Shown here piece after piece: positions 40,698 through 42,638 of a stretch of 64,000 nucleotides of DNA (positions are counted from its first letter, which is position 1; each line of letters begins with the position of its first letter). A program made the translations under genes and the position numbers. Location: assembly GCA_937951345.1 (NCBI GenBank), contig CALFCF010000016.1:1-64000 (forward strand), given 5' to 3'. Origin of the DNA: an uncultured Granulosicoccaceae bacterium (GTDB lineage Bacteria > Pseudomonadota > Gammaproteobacteria > Granulosicoccales > Granulosicoccaceae). The notes beneath the pieces are model-generated. The model saw only the letters and a list, made by a program, of their open reading frames with translations. It did not search any database and was not told the origin of the DNA.

Positions 40698-41411
40698 TCA
40701 GTACCTGACCGATAAATCCTGCAGCCAGGCTGGCATGCGATCCAGCAACCAGATGTCGATGTAATGATTGACGCGCAATAACAATGCTATGCCAACCAGA
40801 AGCAGCGTTACCCCCATTAGCGGTCGAGCCCAGGGCATGATCTTCATCATGCGGTCTCGACGTTTCGAAACCACTTCGCGCGAACCATAAGCCAGTGCTA
40901 ACAACATGGTCGATACACCGAAACCAAAGAACAGCATGGTAATCGCAGCCTGACCTAAGCCCTCGCCACTGGCAGCCAGCGAGAGCGCACCCCCAAGCGT
41001 CGGTCCTATGCACGGTGCCCAAACGGCGCCGAGCAATATACCAATGAGGAACTGACCGTGTATCCCGGTACCTTCGGTTTTCTCCAGTCGCGTGTTAGCA
41101 CCACCTGCCATCGGCGTAACCAGTCGCGAAAAATAACCAGAGGCTTGCGGAACCAGCAGCACCAAACCAAAGGCGATCATTAAAAAGGCTGCAATCTGAT
41201 TCAATCGCTCGGGTGTCAGACCGATCAGATGGCCAAAAGCTGTGACGAGTACACCCACGGCAGTGAAGGACACAATGAGGCCGGCAGCCAGAGCAACCGG
41301 ACCGAGGCGTGATTGCTGTAACGCGGATGCGATAATAATCGGCAGCAGTGGCAGCACGCAGGGATTAATGAGTGTTAGCAAGCCTGCCACATAGGCCCAA
41401 AATAATACCAT
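40698..41411 (-). CDS. ccdA: CcdA/DsbD-type transmembrane thiol electron carrier
   Basis: A 237-aa protein with about six helices. The redox cysteines sit in INPCVLPLLP near the N-terminus and WAPCIGPTLGG in the second half, the two positions conserved in CcdA and the DsbD core. A pair of thiols here carries electrons from cytoplasmic thioredoxin to a periplasmic acceptor. The gene follows the selenocysteine thioredoxin gene (41602-42000) on the same strand by 190 bp. A periplasmic thioredoxin is the expected partner of CcdA, so the two probably form one pathway. No cytochrome c maturation genes are in the window. Confidence 0.9.
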   Translation of the reverse strand: MVLFWAYVAGLLTLINPCVLPLLPIIIASALQQSRLGPVALAAGLIVSFTAVGVLVTAFGHLIGLTPERLNQIAAFLMIAFGLVLLVPQASGYFSRLVTPMAGGANTRLEKTEGTGIHGQFLIGILLGAVWAPCIGPTLGGALSLAASGEGLGQAAITMLFFGFGVSTMLLALAYGSREVVSKRRDRMMKIMPWARPLMGVTLLLVGIALLLRVNHYIDIWLLDRMPAWLQDLSVRY

Positions 41412-41601: not shown

Positions 41602-42000
41602 TCAGGTAACCGACTTGAACATTGCTTCAATGACATCCTTGCTGGTTTGAAACTGCAAACGCTGAACTTCTTCACCTTGATGAAACATCACCAGCGTGGC
41701 CTGTCTGTAGACTTTCAGTTCAGATGCAATGGGTGAATTGCGATGCAGATCCCAGTCAACATAAATAACTTTTACTTTTCGGTACCGTTCGTTTTGATCT
41801 TGGAGCGCACTCACGGTGCGCTTCTGGCTACGACAAACGGGTCACCAGCTAGCTGTAAAATCGAGTAGGAAAGGCTCGCCACTGGCAAGTGCTTCTTCAT
41901 AGATTTCACGTGAATAATTAACTGCGCCCACTGCCATTGAGTTGTTGCACGCAACAACTGCCAGACCTGCGCAACATTTAAGTAATGTTCGGCGATTCAT
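41602..42000 (-). CDS. Predicted selenocysteine thioredoxin-like protein, exported (in-frame UGA at codon 53)
   Basis: From an ATG at 42000 with GAGG 5 nt upstream, the frame reads a signal peptide with a twin-arginine motif (NRRTLLK) and an AVGA cleavage region. It then gives a thioredoxin fold: PFLLDFTASW, one TGA (41844-41842), PVCRSQ, KVKVIYVDWD, ATLVMFHQGEEV. The TGA falls exactly on the first Cys of the CxxC site, giving W52-U53-P54-V55-C56. Coding quality continues unchanged after it to a TGA stop at 41602 (132 residues). A SECIS-like hairpin follows (41804-41822). The residue before the conserved Thr, normally cis-proline, is Ala. A CcdA gene lies downstream. Alternatives are a nonsense mutation or base-call error (TGC to TGA). 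Confidence 0.85.
41804..41822 (-). promoter_or_regulatory. Predicted bacterial SECIS element
   Basis: On the minus strand AGCGCAC-CGTGA-GTGCGCT forms a perfect 7-bp stem with a 5-nt loop inside the coding sequence. The loop starts 26 nt after the in-frame TGA and has G as its second base. Bacterial SECIS elements, as I recall the published consensus, need the loop 16-37 nt after UGA and a G in the first two loop bases. The hairpin would recruit SelB with Sec-tRNA. Confidence 0.75.
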
Positions 42001-42638
42001 ATTTTCCTCATCACGCCTGTACCTATAAAGTGCAAGCGGGTTAAACCGGTATCGTCATATCCGGTTATCGGGTTTTAAACTAACGGGCTGTAAGCTAACG
42101 GTTTTTGAAAAACCGGTATCACATAAATCACATAACTGAATTAGCAATTCTGTGGCCGAAAATTCTGTGGCCGAAAATTGCCAGAGATTCTGTAGCAGGG
42201 AATTCTGTGGCCGTAGAATTTTGTGACCGTAGAATTCCGCGGCCTGCAGCAAGGTCGCTATGTAAGCCCGAGGACACGCGGATAAGCCTCGAAAAGCTAC
42301 ACCTTACAAAAGTACCTGATCCATAGCGACCGTTAAAGTTCCCAAAAAAACGTCAACTTTGAATACGGTTGCAATAAAACAGTAGTCGACTCACCGCAGG
42401 TACCTGACGGAGCCAAAAATAGCTTTATATTGCAACTGAGATTCTATTTTCAATACCGGGAATTGTGCAATCCTGTAACCTTCGCCAGCTGTGCTGAAAG
42501 TTGTGACAGAATAACGCTGGGCTCAAGCCTGATTTACGCTTATTTTTTGCGATGTCTGGATTAACTAACCCACAACTGGCAACGAATTTGTGTGCTAACA
42601 CATTCTTTGTTACGAACCTCTGCATGAGAATTTACCCG
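42001..42638. other. Divergent region between the Sec-thioredoxin and DUF4197 genes
   Basis: About 640 bp without a supported gene. Open frames at 42105-42326 and 42552 onward on the plus strand run through repeats or upstream of better starts. A strong hairpin CGGTTTTT-G-AAAAACCG lies at 42099-42115. The degenerate repeat block at 42146-42249 is listed separately. Promoters for both genes should be here. Confidence 0.5.
42146..42249. repeat. Degenerate 15-16-bp tandem repeats upstream of the Sec-thioredoxin gene
   Basis: About six copies of a unit like AATTCTGTGGCCGTAG. Clear copies start at 42146, 42161, 42201, 42217 and 42233, with a more decayed stretch in between. There are no unique spacers, so it is not a CRISPR array. 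It starts 146 bp upstream of the Sec-thioredoxin start codon. Confidence 0.8.

Follow-up and report, generated by a model that had tools for sequence, protein, structure and literature searches.

Does the TGA that interrupts a thioredoxin gene on the minus strand of the window (the whole stretch of 64,000 nucleotides analysed here) end translation, or does it encode selenocysteine (Sec)? And if Sec is inserted, with which partner would the resulting protein work? Judging from the comparisons described below, the UGA at codon 53 of this gene almost certainly encodes Sec. The features of the gene itself are as follows.

Positions 41602 to 42000, minus strand: coding sequence (132 codons and a stop codon, one in-frame TGA) of a predicted exported thioredoxin selenoprotein.
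Positions 41842 to 41844, minus strand: TGA of codon 53, putatively encoding selenocysteine as the first residue of U-P-V-C, placed by homologue alignment.
Positions 41833 to 41835, minus strand: codon 56, the Cys of UxxC (putative resolving cysteine), Cys in 38 of 38 homologues.
Positions 42005 to 42009, minus strand: Shine-Dalgarno-like GAGGA, 4 nt 5' of the ATG, read directly from the sequence.

An earlier note on this DNA had described a TGA at codon 53 as the only interruption of the minus frame from 42000 to 41602, and direct translation gave the same result. The single internal TGA (window 41844-41842) lies between DFTASW and PVCRSQ; the translation runs MNRRTLLKCCAGLAVVACNNSMAVGAVNYSREIYEEALASGEPFLLDFTASW up to codon 53, continues with PVCRSQKRTVSALQ and ends in EAMFKSVT, followed by a terminal TGA stop at 41602. 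The note's ribosome binding site is plausibly the GAGGA at 42009-42005. Mechanical ORF calling yielded a 70-aa GTG remnant at 41602-41814, which is the truncation that the note had foreseen. When the TGA was read as Cys, the protein matched the Pfam family Thioredoxin (PF00085) with 44.6 bits (E 1.6e-11, cut-off 23.5), and codon 53 fell on the first Cys of CxxC. The family profile matched solved thioredoxin-domain chains with E-values down to about 1e-22. AlphaFold2 with single-sequence input gave a model of the window thioredoxin with a pLDDT of 36.6, too low to be used. For the NCBIfam equivalog TIGR01068 (thioredoxin), the protein scored 41.4 bits, under the cut-off of 96.8. None of the curated NCBIfam models reached its own cut-off on this protein, so the group is likely truncated in annotation. 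Upstream of the gene, at 42147-42228 of the window, short direct repeats like ATTCTGTGGCCG occur four times, spaced 15, 25 and 15 nt apart.

The presence of Sec machinery in the genome had been named in the note as a check on its prediction. The source genome (115 contigs, 95.5% complete) contains a tRNA-Sec on contig C23 (65.9 bits; UCA anticodon by ARAGORN), selA (562.8 bits) and selB (362.9 bits) close to it, and selD on contig C9 (232.6 bits). A genome-wide reassignment of TGA, or its weak decoding as Trp or Cys through a near-cognate tRNA, has a negligible probability: such codes occur in other bacteria, but neighbouring genes of the window terminate in TGA, the genome has the UCA-bearing tRNA-Sec along with selA, selB and selD, and homologues lacking the TGA always have Cys in its place, and the column before it is already taken by Trp; on the TGA stops in the neighbours and the presence of Sec machinery, we rejected genome-wide reassignment. 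As for selD itself (L126:3134-5488, G000:C9), the gene carries a fused N-terminal pyridine-nucleotide oxidoreductase domain, and it is preceded on C9 by a rhodanese-domain gene that looks like a tRNA 2-selenouridine synthase.

The distribution of the TGA among homologues was examined in 48 genomes of the order, where 38 homologous genes passed an E-value of 1e-8. At the column of codon 53, 23 of them had TGA and 15 had Cys (TGT in 11, TGC in 4), and no other residue occurred, which is exactly the Sec/Cys pairing that the note had proposed to look for. The W before this codon and the C three residues after it were invariant in all 38. The 23 TGA forms were spread over 17 genomes and each contained one in-frame TGA, with none in the 15 remaining homologues; the reading frame after the TGA was kept to its end in the TGA forms. 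When the 38 homologues were placed on a protein tree, the Sec and Cys labels required two changes. Beyond the order, we sampled 369 genomes from the class and 398 from the phylum; apart from the two copies of this genome, every form in them lacked an internal stop. A search of genome contigs returned only distant thioredoxins from other phyla, with 25-47% identity. The second of the two copies is a TGA paralogue at G000:C15:19669-20064 (L089), which is about 50% identical and has no ccdA nearby.

Across the order, the TGA form and the Sec machinery occurred together. tRNA-Sec was found in 16 of the 17 TGA-form genomes versus 3 of the 31 other genomes (Fisher p 7e-9), and selA in 15 of 17 versus 2 of 31 (Fisher p 2e-8); in both comparisons the genomes are related and the counts are not independent. 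Neither tRNA-Sec nor selA was found in one TGA-form genome, G003, which is 84% complete in 410 contigs. tRNA-Sec was absent from the 11 checked full-length Cys-form genomes outside the order, which came from the class and phylum samples. Three genomes combine the elements differently: G041 (L091) has tRNA-Sec and selA with a thioredoxin in the Cys form, G022 (L119) has tRNA-Sec with no match for selA, and G016 has both tRNA-Sec and selA, with no thioredoxin homologue found. These three are useful for the question of Sec/Cys exchange.

A candidate for a Sec-insertion signal in the mRNA follows the UGA.

Positions 41804 to 41822, minus strand: predicted bacterial SECIS (bSECIS) hairpin, with the 7-bp stem AGCGCAC/GUGCGCU and the 5-nt loop CGUGA.

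The spacing from the UGA to the CGUGA loop is 26 nt, and the hairpin lies within every published bSECIS limit: a loop of 3-9 nt, a stem of 4-16 bp, a G within the first two positions of the loop, a distance of 16-37 nt from the UGA and an MFE at or below -7.5 (PMC13188914). The 42-nt stretch from the UGA had an MFE of -12.6 kcal/mol with a z of -1.61, and 16 of 200 shuffles were as good; taken alone, the hairpin energy is not exceptional. Over the 20 distinct TGA-form sequences, 89% of the pair cells were standard, and shifting the stem partner reduced the pairing. The covariation rests on one pair, altered on both sides from G-C to A-U in four of these 20 sequences. Most of the sequences from one genus, labelled g4 here, have a C-A mismatch at one stem pair. 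Stronger evidence for a SECIS than folding or covariation came from synonymous-site conservation. In the TGA forms, the excess of shared synonymous codons was 0.55 at codons +7 to +13 versus 0.06 elsewhere (Mann-Whitney p 1e-7), whereas in the Cys forms it was 0.015 versus 0.024 (p 0.54). This suggests a nucleotide-level constraint just 3' of the TGA that is tied to the presence of the TGA. A search of the window for tRNA genes returned none. Rfam gave no match in the window either, as expected for a bacterial SECIS, which sits inside coding sequence.

These results bear on the alternative that the TGA is a real stop in an ordinary CxxC thioredoxin, whether through pseudogene formation, through a point mutation or because a TGC or TGT was misread in sequencing. 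The TGA is indeed one base from TGC and TGT, and mechanical ORF calling ends at it. Nevertheless, the same codon is TGA in homologues from 17 genomes with the downstream frame kept, it follows the Sec machinery across genomes, and the synonymous sites after it are conserved in the TGA forms only. With the TGA recurring across 17 genomes, a sequencing error is untenable; because the TGA is recurrent and tracks the Sec machinery while the downstream coding is conserved, pseudogene and sequencing error were both rejected, and we regard a real stop of any kind as extremely improbable. The reading of codon 53 as Sec is supported by the Sec machinery, the exact pairing with Cys, the co-occurrence across genomes and the TGA-only hairpin with its synonymous selection.

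We then considered where the selenoprotein would act and what would reduce it. Two further features are relevant.

Positions 41932 to 42000 (extent approximate), minus strand: putative signal peptide with a twin-arginine motif (MNRR), from homologue alignment.
Positions 40698 to 41411, minus strand: CcdA/DsbD-TM-type membrane electron carrier (Pfam DsbD_TM, E 2.2e-13), likely redox partner.

A signal peptide had also been claimed in the note, and the N-terminus, MNRRTLLKCCAGLAVVACNNSMA, is signal-like. Every one of the 35 homologues with an aligned N-terminus has the twin arginines, often as RRQFL, which points to likely export through the Tat pathway. The ccdA gene is the next one downstream of the window thioredoxin; its start is 190 bp away, so co-transcription is not assured. 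Its product has two PC-type cysteines, Cys18 and Cys134, conserved in 15 of 15 relatives. For 17 of the 38 homologues of the order, ccdA was the immediate neighbour of the thioredoxin gene, lying downstream of it in 6 cases and upstream in 11; the 11 additional full-length Cys-form loci that we examined from other families all had ccdA adjacent as well. Given the established role of CcdA and DsbD, electron transfer from CcdA to an exported carrier is the simplest model, and gene order suggests that CcdA is probably the reductant of the window copy.

A different possibility is that Sec is inserted but CcdA is not the partner: the protein would then act on its own in the periplasm as a peroxidase or reductase, or would be reduced through another carrier, and the adjacency of ccdA would be left over from a Cys ancestor. 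This would fit the g4 TGA forms and the second copy of this genome, which lack ccdA over a distance of about 5.5 kb, and it makes the partnership less certain for the g4 forms. On the other hand, ccdA adjoins the window copy as well as Cys forms from distant families, and it does so on either side of the thioredoxin gene, a pattern that fits a functional pair. We consider the absence of a CcdA partnership unlikely for the window copy, though worth keeping in mind. The conserved neighbours of the g4 TGA thioredoxins (L093, L097, L100, L102, L105, L111, L112 and others), judged by sequence alone, resemble LarA, LarB, LarC, LarE, a ferredoxin-NADP reductase and a GFA-like protein. The lar genes belong to lactate racemase and its nickel cofactor. 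A functional tie to these lar-type neighbours was set aside as probably shared gene order, since they are absent around the window gene.

Returning to the preferred reading, the TGA, the Sec/Cys pairing, the Sec machinery, the selection on the hairpin region and the adjacency of ccdA lie in the DNA itself, and from them we infer Sec insertion, Tat export and reduction by CcdA. During translation, SelB and Sec-tRNA(Sec) would bind the hairpin about 26 nt 3' of the UGA, and Sec would be inserted at codon 53 to give the active-site motif W-U-P-V-C. The folded protein would be exported to the periplasm, probably by its twin-arginine signal, where the Sec selenolate would attack disulfides, or other oxidised groups, of a substrate. 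The mixed selenenylsulfide would then be resolved by Cys56, and the CcdA-type membrane protein of the neighbouring gene would re-reduce the Sec-thioredoxin with electrons from cytoplasmic thioredoxin. Overall, we judge it highly probable that the gene encodes a periplasmic Sec-thioredoxin whose UGA is read via the hairpin and which is probably re-reduced by the adjacent CcdA.

How does this protein compare with known systems? Sec thioredoxins with UxxC (PF00085) are listed in PMC13188914 and likewise in PMC9312934, and a Sargasso Sea survey contained 11 thioredoxin selenoprotein sequences (PMC1088965). The prediction of the earlier note that this gene encodes a selenoprotein was supported by the computable tests, but Sec in thioredoxins was itself already known (PMC13188914, PMC1088965). 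The window protein shares with these the thioredoxin domain and Sec as the first residue of UxxC. Unlike them, it has a twin-arginine signal-like N-terminus and a ccdA neighbour, and it lies far under the NCBIfam thioredoxin cut-off. The GOS survey described Trx-like 2, a 'thiol disulfide interchange protein' (cd02953, UxxC; PMC2398784), likewise a thioredoxin-like Sec protein of the disulfide-interchange kind; compared by description only, the difference is that carrier and ccdA are separate genes here. Some of the GOS Trx-like sequences may belong to the branch of the window gene. In TsoB (NF045694), a selenoprotein resembling a rhodanese/DsbD fusion, the match to the window CcdA lies in the membrane part, and that to the window thioredoxin in the C-terminal thioredoxin part. 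However, TsoB is one protein of 572 positions with two Sec (UxxxxU, PMC13188914), whereas here there are two separate proteins, which scored 29.8 and 37.3 bits against the NF045694 cut-off of 805 and are not a fusion. Pairs of CcdA and an exported CxxC thioredoxin have the same neighbours, with about 26-41% identity between the window protein and thioredoxins of the Cys form that adjoin ccdA in other families; by contrast, the window gene has Sec for Cys and a SECIS-like hairpin. A literature search on SaoT/CcdA and periplasmic Sec thioredoxin returned no description of a pair of CcdA and a Sec-thioredoxin.

What appears to be new is therefore an apparently uncatalogued branch of exported, ccdA-linked Sec thioredoxins, and it adds a coherent and well-supported selenoprotein gene group of 23 copies in 17 genomes. 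We tentatively suggest that it could represent a selenium branch of the CcdA pathway, in which a free-standing Sec-thioredoxin, exported by Tat and supplied by CcdA with electrons across the membrane, forms a distinct uncatalogued selenoprotein family, duplicated in one bacterial family and found beside Cys versions in close relatives. The occurrence of close Sec and Cys forms in sister genomes, including the Cys form in the Sec-decoding G041, offers a natural comparison of the benefit of Sec outside the cytoplasm.

The source genome contains one more gene of this kind. Upstream of selA, a PrdB/GrdB-like gene (L125:4075-5247, G000:C23) has an in-frame TGA at L125:4534-4536, within U-P-N-C. Its frame, read through, matched PrdB with 82.8 bits, short of the 300 bits set for the equivalog, and gene callers will split it at its TGA. 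The gene has its own hairpin, with a CGUGA loop identical to that of the thioredoxin gene, which is what a single SelB specificity would give. The CGUGA loop is thus a local bSECIS pattern common to two unrelated selenoproteins of one genome.
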